A DNA stretch of 64,000 nt, taken from positions 62,001 through 126,000 of the forward strand of contig NZ_WACG01000006.1 of the NCBI RefSeq assembly GCF_009193255.1, written 5' to 3'. The notes under the pieces were generated by a model. That model saw nothing but the letters and a program-made list of their open reading frames with translations, ran no database searches and was not told the origin of the DNA. The stretch is from Arthrobacter koreensis (GTDB taxonomy: Bacteria; Actinomycetota; Actinomycetes; Actinomycetales; Micrococcaceae). Positions 21,630 through 28,029 of this stretch are shown here, one piece after another. The position numbers and the translations under genes are program-made. The first letter of the stretch is position 1, and each line of letters starts with the position of its first letter.

Positions 21630-23306
21630 TTAATCGGCCATGGGGATGCGGACGCCGCGTTCTTTGGCGACCTGCTCGGCCTCGCCGTAGCCGGCGTCAA
21701 CGTGGCGCATGACGCCCGTCCCTGGATCATTGGTGAGCAGGCGTTCAAGCTTTCGGGCAGCCAGGTCGGTCCCGTCCGCCACTGAAACCTGGCCGGCGTG
21801 CAGGGAGCGGCCAATTCCCACGCCGCCTCCGTGGTGGATGGATACCCAGGTGGCGCCGGAGGACGTGTTGAGCAGGGCGTTGAGCAGCGGCCAGTCAGCT
21901 ATCGCGTCGGATCCGTCCCGCATGCCCTCGGTTTCACGGTACGGAGAGGCCACAGACCCGGAGTCCAGGTGGTCACGTCCGATGACGATCGGAGCGGACA
22001 CCTTCCCCTCGGCGACGAGGCGGTTGAACAGCAGTCCGGCCTCCGCTCGTTCTCCGTAGCCGAGCCAGCAGATCCGGGCGGGAAGGCCCTCGAACTCCAC
22101 GTGTTCGGCGGCGGCGTCCAGCCAGCGGTGCAGGTGCTCCTTTTCCGGGAAGAGTTCCTTCAGCGCAGCGTCGGTGACGGCGATGTCCGCGGGGTCCCCG
22201 GAGAGCGCCACCCAGCGGAACGGGCCCATTCCCTCGCAGAACAACGGCCGGATGTAGGCCGGAACGAACCCGGGGAAGTCGAAGGCGCGGCCGTATCCGC
22301 CGGAGCGTGCCTCGTCACGGATCGAGTTGCCGTAGTCGAAGACCTCGGCGCCGGTGTCCTGGAAGCCGACCATCGCCTCCACCTGCCGGGCCATGGAAGC
22401 CTGCGCCTTCTTGGTGAACCCTTGCGGATCGGCGTCCGCTTCGCAATGCCAGTCCTCGACCGCAATTCCTTCCGGCAGGTAGCTGAGCGGGTCATGGGCC
22501 GAGGTCTGGTCGGTGACGATGTCAAAGTCCGCGTCCTGTCCGGCTTTTTGGCGGCGGAGCAGTTCAGGGAAGACCTCTGCGGCGTTGCCCACCAGGCCCA
22601 CGGAGAGTGCCCGTCCCTCGGCCTTGGCCGCCATCACCTTGGCGAGGGCGGCCTCGAGGTCCGTTTCGACGTCGTCCAGGTAGCGTTTGCCGGCGCGGCG
22701 CCGCAGCCGGGACTCGTCGACGTCGACAATCAGTACCGCACCCCCGTTGAGCGTGACCGCGAGCGGCTGGGCACCGCCCATGCCTCCGCAGCCGCCCGTC
22801 AGGGTGGCGGTGCCGGCCAGGGTGCCGCCAAACCGCTTGTTGGCGATGGCCGCGAAGGTCTCATACGTGCCCTGCAGGATGCCCTGCGTGCCGATGTAGA
22901 TCCAGGAGCCGGCGGTCATTTGCCCGTACATGGTCAGGCCTTCGGCTTCCAGGCGGCGGAACTCGGGCCACGTGGACCAGTCCCCCACCAGGTTCGAGTT
23001 GGCGAGCAGCACCCGCGGCGCCCATTCGTTGGTGCGGAAGACCCCCACGGGCTTGCCGGACTGGACGAGCAGCGTCTCGTCGTCGTCCAGCGTTTTCAGG
23101 GTGCGGACAATCGCGTCGAAGGACTCCCAGTTCCGAGCAGCCTTTCCGGTGCCGCCGTAGACCACCAGGTCCTCGGGGCGCTCGGCGACCTCCGGGTCCA
23201 GGTTGTTCATCAGCATCCGCAGGGGCGCTTCGGTCTGCCAGCTCCTGGCATTCAGTTCGCTGCCGCGCGGGGCGCGGATGGTGCGCGGGGTTGGTGTTTG
23301 GCTCAT
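21630..23306 (-). CDS. hutU: Urocanate hydratase
   Basis: HutU adds water to urocanate using a tightly bound NAD+ as an electrophile. The 558-aa protein shows the glycine-rich NAD region [19 protein letters not shown], the [10 protein letters not shown] motif and the conserved cysteine in [13 protein letters not shown]. Length is typical. I chose the ATG at 23306, which has GGAG 7-8 nt upstream, over an ATG five codons earlier. It lies 24 bp after the IclR regulator gene. Histidine ammonia-lyase (hutH) is not in the window. Confidence 0.97.
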
Positions 23307-23330
23307 GGGGTTCTCCGTCATCGTTGTCGG

Positions 23331-23981
23331 TTAGCCGTGTGTTTGGACTGCATTGGTTTCTGCGGTGAGGACCCGGCAGATCCCCTCCAGCCGGTCGGGA
23401 GTGATCCGGTAGCTGGGCACCACTACGCTCATCGCTGCCACGGGTTTCCCGCCGGCCCTCAGCGGGACGGCGACGGCGGTGATGTCCGGTTCGACGCCGT
23501 CGCTCACCACGGCGCACCCGGTCCCGTTCACTTCGCCGCGCATCGCCCTGCCGGCGGCGCTGGTTTCGAGGTCGAACCGCCGTCCCACCCAGTTGGCGTG
23601 CCGAACGGACTGAGTGCCTTCTGCGATGGCAATGTACAGGCCGTGCCCGCCGGCCGCGGGAATGCTGAGGTAAGTGGATTCACCGGTTTGCTCCACGATG
23701 CGGTCCATGGTGTCCCGGTAAGTGGAGATCAGGGATTCCGAGCTGAGGGCGAGGACGCCTAGCTGCACGACCGCCGGGCCGGGACGGTAGGTCCCGTTCT
23801 CCTCCCGCCGCAGGAAGTCGGTTCCTTCCAGGGTGCGGAGGAGCCGCAGCGCCGTGCTGGTGGACAGCCCGGCTGCCTTGGCCGCTTCGGACTGCGTGAC
23901 AGCGCCCTGGCGGCACACGACGCTGAGCAGGGACAGGGCTCGTTCAACTGTCCGGGTGGTGCTGTCCGCCTTGGCTGCCAT
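23331..23981 (-). CDS. IclR-family regulator of the hut operon
   Basis: The 216-aa protein has an N-terminal winged helix (about residues 10-75, with AVTQSEAAKAAGLSTSTALRLLRTL) and a C-terminal IclR effector domain (about 80-216) with ATSAAGRAM-like ETSAAGRAMRG. It is the first gene of the operon with hutU, the amidohydrolase, hutF and hutI, so it very likely senses urocanate or a related intermediate and controls its own operon. I prefer the ATG at 23981, which follows GAGGA; a GTG at 24026 would place the start inside the upstream inverted repeat. Confidence 0.88.
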   Translation of the reverse strand: MAAKADSTTRTVERALSLLSVVCRQGAVTQSEAAKAAGLSTSTALRLLRTLEGTDFLRREENGTYRPGPAVVQLGVLALSSESLISTYRDTMDRIVEQTGESTYLSIPAAGGHGLYIAIAEGTQSVRHANWVGRRFDLETSAAGRAMRGEVNGTGCAVVSDGVEPDITAVAVPLRAGGKPVAAMSVVVPSYRITPDRLEGICRVLTAETNAVQTHG

Positions 23982-24022
23982 CCTGCTGCTTTCCTCACGG
24001 GTTACGTCACATGGGTTCTTTG

Positions 24023-24054
24023 CCACCTAGTAAAACAGCAATTTCACTAGGTGG
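24023..24054. promoter_or_regulatory. Inverted repeat, likely hut operon operator
   Basis: Two perfect 9-bp arms, CCACCTAGT (24023-24031) and ACTAGGTGG (24046-24054), are separated by 14 bp and lie 42-73 bp upstream of the IclR-family gene. Autoregulation by that protein is the simplest reading. Confidence 0.6.
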
Positions 24055-24960: not shown

Positions 24961-25440
24961 CTAGCTCTTGGTGATGAAATAGAACACGACTCCGGCCGCG
25001 ACCATAAAACCGAATCCTGCCGCCCCGATACGCCTCTGCTGCGCGCGGGTGGGCGGGTTGTTCCTGCGTACGAAAGTCTGGATGAGCCCGAGTGCGCCGA
25101 AGCCCAGCCCAATCAGCACCAGCACCACGAAAACGGGCACAAGCGGATCGGATCCCTGAGTCAGGGGGTTGGGGCCGCCGGGAACAGAATGTTGCAGCGC
25201 CCCCGTCAGGGACAGAATGACCAGTACCACTCCCATCACCATCCCGCCCAGGATCGGCAGCAGGAGGGCTGCCTTCATCCGCTCCGGGCCGGTGTCAGCC
25301 CTCTTCGCCATCTTGTCCCCCAAAAAGAATTCGGGCTGGGAGCTGGCAAAGCCACTGATGGCATCACGCTTCCGAAAAGCGAAGATGCAGGCGGCTGTCA
25401 TCAGCGTTCCGACTATGAGCCCAGGCCAGAAAATGTCCAC
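24961..25440 (-). CDS. Four-segment membrane protein of unknown function
   Basis: I do not recognise a family. The 159-aa protein has four predicted membrane segments (for example FWPGLIVGTLMTAACIF near the N-terminus and GFMVAAGVVFYFI near the C-terminus) and basic cytoplasmic loops. I chose the GTG at 25440 because AAGGAG lies 7 nt before it; a further upstream GTG in frame lacks a ribosome site. It is the third gene of a set of three small membrane-protein genes on this strand, separated by 44 bp from the second. Confidence 0.65.
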   Translation of the reverse strand: MDIFWPGLIVGTLMTAACIFAFRKRDAISGFASSQPEFFLGDKMAKRADTGPERMKAALLLPILGGMVMGVVLVILSLTGALQHSVPGGPNPLTQGSDPLVPVFVVLVLIGLGFGALGLIQTFVRRNNPPTRAQQRRIGAAGFGFMVAAGVVFYFITKS

Positions 25441-25484
25441 GAATCGCTCCTTATTGGTGATTGCCTGCCGGATGGGCGTGCTGG

Positions 25485-25685
25485 TCACAGCTGGTCACAG
25501 ACCGACGAACGCCTGCCCATTCCAAACCTGCACATGAATTCCGGGTCGTTGATGTCGCCGCCGTCGAGCAGAAGAATGACCCCCAGCACCATCAAGGCCA
25601 CGCAGACGGCTGTGATCATCCAGAACCGCCGCCAGTTCACTGCCCGGCCGCCAGCACGGACGCCGCGTTTGCCAAACGGGCTCAC
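25485..25685 (-). CDS. Small single-span membrane protein, 66 aa
   Basis: No family is recognised. One membrane segment (MITAVCVALMVLGVILLL, about residues 23-40) follows a basic N-terminus, and the short C-terminal part has two cysteines. The positive-inside rule places the N-terminus in the cytoplasm. Its ATG overlaps the stop of the preceding gene by 4 bp, which argues that it is real and translated together with it. Confidence 0.6.
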   Translation of the reverse strand: MSPFGKRGVRAGGRAVNWRRFWMITAVCVALMVLGVILLLDGGDINDPEFMCRFGMGRRSSVCDQL

Positions 25686-25855
25686 TCACCCCTCGTTTCC
25701 GCGTTTCTGCGATAAACGAGCCTGACCACATAGATGAGGAACAAGGTGCCGGGGACGCCGAGCAGCGGCGATCCGTCCGGCACGAGGAATGCGAGCAGCA
25801 CGGTGGCGGCGGCACAGCACAAAAACGCAAGACCGATTGTCTTTGCGAGTCTCAT
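25682..25855 (-). CDS. Small two-span membrane protein, 57 aa
   Basis: The product starts MRLAKTIGLAFLCCAAATV and has two hydrophobic segments separated by a short Pro/Gly loop (PDGSPLLGVPGT), then a basic tail RLVYRRNAETRGE. I chose the ATG at 25855, the start of the hydrophobic protein; longer in-frame readings add an unlikely polar segment. The stop overlaps the next ATG (ATGA). It heads a three-gene set of small membrane proteins with no recognised function. Confidence 0.55.
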   Translation of the reverse strand: MRLAKTIGLAFLCCAAATVLLAFLVPDGSPLLGVPGTLFLIYVVRLVYRRNAETRGE

Positions 25856-26547
25856 TGCCGCTCCGTTCCGGCGAGACCAGCGCTGGCATAGCGGCTTGGA
25901 GCCGTTGCTTCCATCATCGATTCCCCCGGATACGAGACTGTGCCGGAACGGGCGTTCCGGTGGGCAGAATCTAACCCACATCCGACCGGCAGTCTGCGGT
26001 TGCAAGTACCTGCTTCCAGCCGTTGCCTACTTGAAACCCAGCTGTTTTTGCTGCTTATCACCGGCCCTGCTCTTCAGAAGCGCACGGATTCCCGACCGCC
26101 GTTTCCTCTGGTGCACGTGGGGTCACGATAGGACCCGGCAGCAACAACGGCTGGGAAACCGCGCGGACTTTCGGAGGTTGTTGGAACGCAGAAAGCTCTG
26201 GGATCCAGTTCGCCTCGCCTGAACCGGAACCCTCGGTGGTTTAACGTCGTTTAGGCGTCAGGTGCTCGAACCTTCGGTGACTTACGGTCGCTTAGCCGCA
26301 CCCAAAGCGACGTTTACTCCCCGAAGGTTTCGCCAAGCACCCCCAAAACAGCCGCATCTCCCCGAAGGTTTCGTCCGGGCAGACCCCCGGCAGTCCGCTG
26401 CTCTCCACCGCGGCCACGGTGACCCAGCAGCCCGGACCTCCAGCGAAACCGCTTCCCACCCAAAACCCCAGAACCGGGAACAAGAAGTAAGCATGCTTGG
26501 TTATACCCGGCATCGTCAGAAACGTACCCTTACAAAGGAGAGCGCCC
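25856..26547. other. 692-bp intergenic region with no convincing gene
   Basis: Reading frames here are short and lack coding bias and ribosome sites. The only clear structure is the symmetric repeat array at 26226-26373. The last 60 bp are less GC-rich and probably contain the promoter of the aldehyde dehydrogenase gene. A 22-codon frame at 26492 overlaps the dehydrogenase start but is not supported. Confidence 0.6.
26226..26373. repeat. 148-bp nested inverted array of four related half-units
   Basis: Two half-units face right (26226 and 26267, 41 bp apart; cores GAACCCTCGG and GAACCTTCGG). Two face left (ending 26332 and 26373, again 41 bp apart; both CCCCGAAGGTTTCG on the plus strand). The two pairs are exactly symmetric about 26299/26300. 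The inner pair forms an imperfect palindrome with arms of about 28 bp and a spacer of about 10 bp. It lies 175 bp upstream of the aldehyde dehydrogenase gene. Confidence 0.75.
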
Positions 26548-28029
26548 ATGACCGCCGCTAACCCCGCAGCATCCGGCTGGATCCCGGCCAAGCAGTTCAT
26601 CGCCGGAGAATGGCGCCAGGGCCGCTCCGAGAAGACCCTGCCGGACACCAACCCGTTCACCGGCGAGGATCTCCTCGGCCTGCAGCTGGCCTCCATCGAA
26701 GACCTTAACGACGCCTATGACAGCGCACGGGATGCCCAAACCGAGTGGGCCGCCGCTCCCCCGGCCGAACGCCGCCGCGTCCTGGAACGCGCTGCCGAGA
26801 TCCTGGATGAACGGCGGGACGAAATCGCCGCGTGGCTCGCAGCCGAATCCGGCAGCACCGTGGTGAAGGCCAACATCGAGATCGATTCCGCGATCGGCAT
26901 TACCCGCGAAGCAGCGTCCTACCCGCACCGGGTCCACGGGCAGATCCTCGACTCGGACATTCCAGGCAAAGAGGACCGCGTCTACCGGGACCCGCTCGGC
27001 GTCGTCGGTGTCATTAGCCCGTGGAACTTCCCGCTGCATCTCTCCCAGCGCTCAGTGGCACCTGCCCTGGCACTGGGCAACGCCGTCGTGCTGAAGCCGG
27101 CCAGCGATACCCCGGTGACCGGAGGCCTGCTTATCGGCAAGGTCTTCGAGGACGCCGGGCTGCCGGCCGGCCTGCTGAGCGTCGTGGCCGGCGCCGGGTC
27201 GGAAATCGGTGACGCGTTCGTGGAGCACCCCGTCCCGTCCCTCATTTCCTTCACGGGCTCGACGGCGGTGGGCAAGAACGTTGGTGCCCTTGCCGCCAGC
27301 GGCGAGCACCTGAAACACACGGCCCTGGAACTCGGCGGCAACGGTCCGTTTGTGGTCCTGGCGGATGCGGACGTGGACCAGGCCGTCCGGGCCGCGGTGA
27401 TGGGCAAGTTCCTGCACCAGGGCCAGATCTGCATGGCCATCAACCGGATCATCGTCGAGGACGCCGTCCATGACGAGTTCGTGCAGAAGTTCACCCAGCA
27501 CGTCCGGTCCCTGCCTGCCGGTGACCCTACCGATCCGAAGACCGTGATTGGCCCGATCATCAACGCCAAGCAGCTCGAAGGCCTGGAAGGGAAAATCAGC
27601 ACCGCCAAGGACGAGGGCGCGAAAGCAGTTCTGGAGGGCAGCACCGACGGACAGGTGCTCAGCCCGTGGGTCTTCACCGGCGTCACCCCGGAGATGGAGC
27701 TGGCCCGCGAGGAGATCTTCGGCCCGCTTGCCGGCATCCAGCGCGCCCGCGACGCAGAGCATGCCCTGGAACTGGCCAACGCCACTCCCCAGGGACTCTC
27801 CGGAGCGGTCTTCACCGAATCAGCCGAGGCCGGCCTGAAGTTCGCCCGGCGGCTGCAGGTGGGCATGGCCCACGTGAATGACATGCCGGTTCACGACGAG
27901 CCGCACGTGGCGTTCGGCGGGGTGAAGAACTCCGGCCTGGGCCGGTTCAACGGCAGCTGGGCCATTGATGAGTTCACCAAGGACCAGACGCTTACGCTCC
28001 AGCACGAACCGCGGCAATACCCGTTCTAG
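26548..28029 (+). CDS. Aldehyde dehydrogenase (benzaldehyde/vanillin dehydrogenase-like)
   Basis: The 493-aa NAD(P)-dependent enzyme oxidises an aldehyde to its acid. Motifs: [21 protein letters not shown] (cofactor region), [11 protein letters not shown], the general base in [12 protein letters not shown], and the catalytic cysteine at about residue 295 in [10 protein letters not shown]. The GQICM and [12 protein letters not shown] patterns are those of aromatic-aldehyde dehydrogenases. AAGGAGA lies upstream of the ATG. Its 3' end overlaps the convergent FAD-protein gene by 38 bp. The substrate is inferred only from family resemblance. Confidence 0.92.

Follow-up and report, generated by a model that had tools for sequence, protein, structure and literature searches.

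Intergenic arrays of ~28-bp units with fixed spacing form a family across the genus Arthrobacter

An intergenic array of four ~28-bp units in Arthrobacter koreensis is one copy of a family of such arrays that is dispersed across the genus. The array lies in the window (the whole 64,000-nucleotide stretch of DNA that was analyzed), and the family, its geometry, and its distribution can be read directly from the genomes compared here. As to what the arrays do, we tentatively favor, as the best explanation, that they are double-stranded sites for a protein, set on a helical lattice and serving as a barrier or insulator at gene ends.

A symmetric four-unit array in the window

The array consists of two forward units followed by two reverse units (F1-F2-R1-R2, spaced F-41-F-33-R-41-R), spans 143 bp, and has inverted symmetry about position 26299. 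The array, its parts, and its neighbors are as follows.

25682..25855, minus strand: 57-aa reading frame, a neighbor outside the array; no Pfam match; start picked within ORF 25682-26005
26228..26370, no strand assigned: whole array F1-F2-R1-R2, 143 bp
26228..26255, plus strand: forward unit F1, ~28 bp
26256..26268, no strand assigned: spacer F1/F2, 13 nt, poorly kept between arrays
26269..26296, plus strand: forward unit F2, ~28 bp
26297..26301, no strand assigned: center, 5 nt; the equivalent place in genome G014 holds IS30-family insertions
26302..26329, minus strand: reverse unit R1, ~28 bp
26330..26342, no strand assigned: spacer R1/R2, 13 nt; across the family, no complementarity between an array's two spacers
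26343..26370, minus strand: reverse unit R2, ~28 bp
26548..28029, plus strand: aldehyde dehydrogenase family gene, a neighbor outside the array; Pfam Aldedh

This layout, with steps of 41, 33, and 41, confirms a symmetric array of two forward and two reverse units that an earlier note had described, and it moves the center of symmetry, which had been placed at 26299/26300, to exactly 26299. The half-unit proposed in that note, GAAMCCTTCGG, is exact in the two reverse units and carries two mismatches in each of the forward units, while the real unit is ~28 bp long. Both reverse copies share an identical 16-bp stretch, CTCCCCGAAGGTTTCG, and the forward units differ more. In a self-similarity score for the four-unit, 143-bp frame, the geometry of which was fixed after the array had been seen, position 26228 reached 119 of 168, against 82 for the runner-up in the 64-kb window (mean, 46.0; standard deviation, 6.3) and 82 for the best of 40 block shuffles. 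The bare 11-mer, allowing up to two mismatches, occurs 47 times in the window against 38.4 expected, a count reached by 10 of 100 shuffles. Since the 11-mer is without clear enrichment, the signal comes from the long units and the geometry in which they are set. Our 143-nt family model (model R2) matched the window solely at the array, which is itself one of the model's 37 training rows, and a search of 25000-27500 against Rfam returned two matches, both outside the array and far under gathering scores.

Distribution across genomes

A BLAST search with the array region hit 5 of the 29 genomes compared within the genus, one of them the window's own. Model R1, a 69-nt model of a unit pair, matched 6 of the 29, and model R2 matched 25 at E values up to 0.1, the best first-look candidates being scored in both cases; chance palindromes may be among the weak R2 matches. 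Across the family, under stricter filters and again with the best first-look candidates scored, model R1 matched 6 of 325 genomes, all in the same genus. A pattern scan of contigs found seven stretches, in Arthrobacter citreus DSM 20133 and Arthrobacter sp. Edens01. The highest counts for a single genome were at least 51 R2 matches, on both strands (G004; 110 first-look candidates scored), and at least 39 R1 matches (150 candidates scored). Many of the best loci in distant species have the same layout built from other sub-motifs, such as CGTGCAGATAACG, TGAGCAGATAACG, and TGTACAGATAACG; the layout was not clearly seen at loci L223, L224, and L225. Genomes G005, G011, and G012 had no array by model R2 or by either of the free-distance core scans described below, and the arrays are therefore dispensable.

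An order-wide search with model R2 gave weak matches in 28 of 396 genomes and 14 of 109 genera (E values up to 0.01; best candidates scored), and since a palindromic model favors palindromes, weak matches in other genera may be due to chance. An inverted pair was present in 5 of 10 stretches fetched from one other genus (g10) and absent from the one stretch fetched from another (g42). The five in g10 (L282, L283, L284, L285, and L289) are lone, near-palindromic inverted pairs that share the same core at a core distance of 30 or 31, and in three cases the flanking ORFs are convergent. No match was found in plasmids, queried with the window array, L221, and L242, or in phages, queried with the window array and L242, and one exact pattern had no match in IMG/VR. 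Judged by title and the start of the abstract, none of the open-licence papers among the matches listed describes such arrays, and the occurrences in the literature of six short family sequences concern, by their titles, other subjects.

Spacing geometry

Six genomes supplied 47 fetched stretches, in which we read 48 arrays or part-arrays, most commonly in the order FFRR (23 cases). Within arrays, forward units nearly always precede reverse units and so point inwards. The step between units was 41 in 46 of 51 F-F cases, 33 in 41 of 43 F-R cases, and 41 in 45 of 50 R-R cases, but a weak unit (score under 17) was accepted only if it lay at a listed spacing, and these steps are therefore biased towards such spacings. 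The spacing-free test consisted of core-pair scans of the 29 genomes, with a core chosen after the arrays had been seen. Tandem pairs of the core AGATAACG, for which start-to-start distances of 21 to 51 were allowed, numbered 149 in 21 of the 29 genomes, at distances of 31 (37 pairs), 41 (96), 42 (11), 40 (3), 37 (1), and 43 (1). Inverted core pairs, for which outer lengths of 27 to 57 were allowed, numbered 54 in 17 of the 29 genomes, with an outer length of 39 in 53 and 41 in one; orthologous and duplicated copies are counted in both totals. The reversed-pattern control gave no match in any of the 29 genomes in either scan. Genomes G005, G008, G011, G012, and G015 had no match in the tandem or the inverted scan, nor did G014, in which arrays are nonetheless present by model R1.

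The tandem distances of 31 and ~41 bp differ by about one helical turn. Four loci (L192, L212, L216, and L221) have an inverted step of 42 instead of 32, and the adjoining forward step is 31 in all four. Binding on one face of the helix would predict distances that lie 10 bp apart and that, taken from core to core, are equal for tandem and inverted neighbors. One-face helical phasing had already been suggested in the earlier note; the fixed tandem and inverted distances found genus-wide fit it, although one-face binding itself is a prediction drawn from them. Other arrangements of units also occur. The array after maf in G010 (L242:1388-1795) has eleven units in the order FRFRRRRFRRR, with reverse-to-forward steps of 39, and two arrays of forward units in G003 have steps of 41 and 31 mixed (G003:C1:50007-50168) or steps of 31 throughout (G003:C1:1996042-1996142).

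Conservation in place and gene context

We compared 23 pairs of orthologous arrays, each in the orientation that gave the higher unit identity and leaving aside those in which units were cut or shifted (L100, L101, L107, L118, L134, L135, and L140). Identity was 77% in the units (1993/2576), 55% in the spacers (327/598), 53% in the center (61/115), and 34% in ungapped 40-bp flanks (630/1840). An array can persist as the surrounding DNA changes. Downstream of a gene encoding a 201-aa methyltransferase, an array is present in five of five species of the clade though the next gene varies; the G014 array at this place is a half, cut by IS30. Genomes G011 and G012 have no array after the methyltransferase gene, although the next gene is the same as in G000 and G004. 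Nine genomes also have an array after maf (G001, G002, G004, G010, G014, G016, G020, G026, and G028), five have one at the ctaB/ctaA junction (G000, G002, G004, G006, and G025), and three have one between proC and trkA (G003, G017, and G027), where a genome of another genus (G089) has a single palindrome; these loci were fetched because they bear arrays, and array-free genomes there are uncounted.

Arrays are rare in gaps between divergent genes. With a minimum gap length of 150 bp, divergent genes flank 3 of 39 array-bearing gaps and 29 of 80 array-free ones (Fisher P = 0.0008); the corresponding figures are 3 of 39 against 32 of 100 at a cut-off of 100 bp and 3 of 36 against 22 of 65 at 200 bp. 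Across the genus, 66 loci were taken in, L223, L224, and L225 were dropped for having under two units, and 16 were duplicates; among the 47 nonduplicate loci, tandem gaps account for 24, convergent gaps for 20, and a divergent gap for 1, and 2 are unclassified, with orthologues kept both here and in the gap count and with partial overlap between the two sets. The ORFs behind the gap classes and neighbor families were predicted by a simple G+C-based caller. Its left neighbor for the window array, a 162-aa frame on the plus strand, was judged spurious; the array is tandem in that call, and 4 of 39 gaps would otherwise be divergent. Given the 57-aa frame at 25682..25855, the window array is an exception that lies in a divergent gap. 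Protein families present at four or more array loci, inspected by eye among the largest 40 clusters, were mostly orthologous neighbors (maf, gltP, ctaB, proC, and others), with no common DNA-binding gene and no transposase among them, and no binding protein for the arrays was found.

Mobility and IS30 insertions

The arrays might instead be nonautonomous mobile elements of the MITE or REP type, in which the units are sites for a transposase and the enzyme dictates their fixed spacing. We regard this as possible but somewhat unlikely. Several features would suit such an origin: copies are dispersed in several species and have lineage-specific sub-motifs, the number of units changes, modules are duplicated, as in FFRRFFRR, and a comparison of seven places between G004 and G014 found an array in one species only at four. 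The rarity of arrays in promoter gaps would be equally expected of harmless insertions. The earlier note had raised the possibility of a mobile palindromic element, and its dispersed, palindromic character is borne out by the 48 arrays and part-arrays in 47 stretches from six genomes; activity, by contrast, is not. Three of the four one-species places were examined, and none of the three showed a clean empty site or a target duplication; the gaps there differ otherwise too. The Y1 transposase (Y1_Tnp, PF01797), the sole family screened genome-wide, was found in 0 of 29 genomes, with 5 of 14 control genomes positive, and RAYT was accordingly rejected as a vehicle. The lack of a transposase among the families shared by array loci also weighs against mobility, as does the lack of matches in phages and plasmids and of one exact pattern in IMG/VR. 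Furthermore, orthologous copies keep their units above their spacers, which would be unexpected for neutral relics. The sequence CAGATAACG may resemble the ends of Tn3-family transposons.

Mobile DNA does enter the arrays of one genome. In G014, the centers of at least three arrays are occupied by an IS30-family element, with five junctions, each 4 nt from a unit end. The element brings its own ends, a further point against the mobile-element reading.

L140:2742-4189, and also L135, L137, and L138: IS30-family element in G014 arrays

Its transposase gene scored above the cut-off for NF033563 in both pieces. The G014 array at the dehydrogenase locus is in two halves separated by an insertion sequence, and by eye the halves share a 3-bp repeat. 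A G014 scaffold also joins halves of two arrays through an IS30-family element, and since there are Ns inside this element, a true rearrangement and a misassembly are indistinguishable there. IS30 is described in PMC9333248 as entering nearly palindromic hot spots, and the five G014 junctions agree with repeated central insertion into a palindromic target. Status as a target leaves the arrays themselves unexplained; those read in other genomes have no IS30 in the center.

Pairing between units

A second alternative is that the arrays are transcribed and form hairpins at gene 3′ ends, as bidirectional terminators or mRNA stabilizers, which we consider improbable. The gene-end location and the forward-then-reverse order would be expected of hairpins, and the near-perfect palindromes of genus g10, three of five of them between convergent ORFs, point the same way. 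So does covariation between F2 and R1: in these columns 77.6% of cells pair against 71.8% when shuffled, covariation is 0.268 against 0.177, and 92 cells are changed on both sides against 56.7, with none of 500 shuffles as high for either of the latter two values. However, the RNAalifold consensus fold has a folding term of 0, and F1-R2 pairing is 75.0% against 73.3% when shuffled, with 11 of 500 shuffles equally high. Direct repeats are also more alike than inverted ones. In the 36 of 41 cores used for this comparison, from which five with an unmatched outer unit were omitted, pairability was 0.833 for F1-F2 and 0.800 for R1-R2, against 0.771 for F2-R1, 0.765 for F1-R1, 0.750 for F1-R2, and 0.722 for F2-R2. 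Since direct repeats are unable to pair with each other, likeness between adjacent units suffices to produce the pairing excess.

Similarly, in 48 distinct inverted pairs, positions 20 to 30 are pairable in 302 cases against 310.6 when shuffled. Agreement exceeds expectation at positions 20 and 21 (41 and 38 of 48, against 35.6 and 33.8), which favors hairpins, but falls below it, not significantly, at positions 22 and 23 (18 and 20 of 48, against 23.6 and 25.1). The spacers of the two arms match at 3.8 of 13 positions within arrays against 4.6 between arrays, and L251 has six units of one orientation. A search of 25800-26700 for terminators found none at the array and one site outside it, at 26466-26479 (1.2 expected). 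We conclude that there is no clear selection for pairing between units, although hairpins may still form, above all in genus g10. Beside the array at L298:9620-9670 in G004, a terminator-like stem (GGGCGCCTCCC/GGGAGGCGCCC) can be seen by eye; it is kept in G014 (L295), where the array is missing, which argues against a terminator role for the arrays.

The aldehyde dehydrogenase locus

The earlier note correctly put an aldehyde dehydrogenase gene (Pfam Aldedh at 26548-28029) downstream of the array. It had also held that a functional array would be unlikely if the matching intergenic regions of close relatives kept no half-units or spacing; the array is kept there in five of five close-clade species. 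An operator of the dehydrogenase gene, bound by a dedicated regulator, is nevertheless very improbable: although the array is kept at the locus in five species and ends 177 bp before the start codon in the window, it lies ~0.55 kb from the start in G001 and ~9.5 kb from the gene in G006 (L115:3774-13237), and the family at large adjoins unrelated genes and is rare in divergent gaps. The intervening ~9.5 kb in G006 encodes an alcohol dehydrogenase, a GH65/HAD protein, a P-type cation ATPase, and a DUF4386 protein. Elsewhere in the window, at 21630-24026, a hutU urocanate hydratase gene adjoins a gene for an IclR-family regulator.

Protein sites at gene ends

We return to the reading that we tentatively favor, in which the arrays are double-stranded sites for a protein. 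Units are better kept than spacers, and there is no clear selection for pairing of one unit with another, so that such sites fit the observations best. Each ~28-bp unit, with the core AGATAACG or a relative of it, would be bound by a candidate sequence-specific protein, and a lattice step of 31 or ~41 bp, in tandem and inverted pairs alike, would set the bound proteins on one face of the helix, where they may contact one another. Because most array gaps begin with the 3′ end of a gene and some arrays keep to the same gene end across species, an architectural role is likeliest, and the arrays may form a protein-covered barrier or insulator that closes transcription units. The binding protein and its one-face binding are inferred, as is the barrier role, which we deduce solely from where the arrays lie.

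A bolder version, which we consider rather unlikely, is that the arrays make up a RAYT-independent class of interspersed elements, in which 28-bp sites on a one-turn lattice (31/41 bp, tandem and inverted) and a protein encoded by the genus form a polar barrier at gene 3′ ends. Protein and site would change together between lineages while the geometry stays. If this is true, the arrays would represent an actinobacterial family of interspersed elements in which helical geometry is retained as the sequence changes. A long-standing question, whether gene-end repeats are kept in place by proteins bound to them in an array and not by RNA structure or a transposase, would then become testable. The family would also imply that Arthrobacter has a DNA-binding protein not seen until now.

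Relation to known repeat families

Of the known repeat families, REP/BIME elements come closest to the arrays in location and layout. Like the arrays, they are intergenic repeats with regular spacing that occur in both orientations and are targets of insertion sequences. As described in the relevant parts of PMC3733652, PMC1525189, and PMC2817692, they are mostly found between convergent or unidirectional genes, and the arrays are likewise extragenic and lie in convergent or unidirectional gaps, the window array excepted. Array spacing is regular and both orientations are used, though the order is forward then reverse and not strictly alternating. The arrays are thus like BIMEs in place and unlike them in make-up: they consist of ~28-bp units, give no signal of folding between units, and have spacing quantized at 31 and ~41 bp. 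Each REP unit is an imperfect palindrome preserved by compensating changes; the tests of pairing made here covered pairs of units. Copy number may also be lower: the highest counts for a single genome, which are lower bounds from the best first-look candidates, were at least 51 R2 and at least 39 R1 matches, against the more than 100 copies given for REPs in PMC2817692. Moreover, REPs have a RAYT partner, whereas the arrays occur without a Y1 (RAYT-type) gene in 29 genomes, and since this companion is absent, we do not file the arrays as REPs.

A further likeness, compared by description, is to paired multicopy sites in Geobacter metallireducens, which PMC2700814, in its account of these sites, calls putative sites for a global regulator. 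Like the arrays, the Geobacter sites are multicopy tandem repeats paired on opposite strands; they are built of octanucleotides or similar short tandem repeats at variable pair distances, whereas distances in the arrays are fixed. Arthrobacter livingstonensis is named in PMC12306157 among the genomes with predicted REPs.
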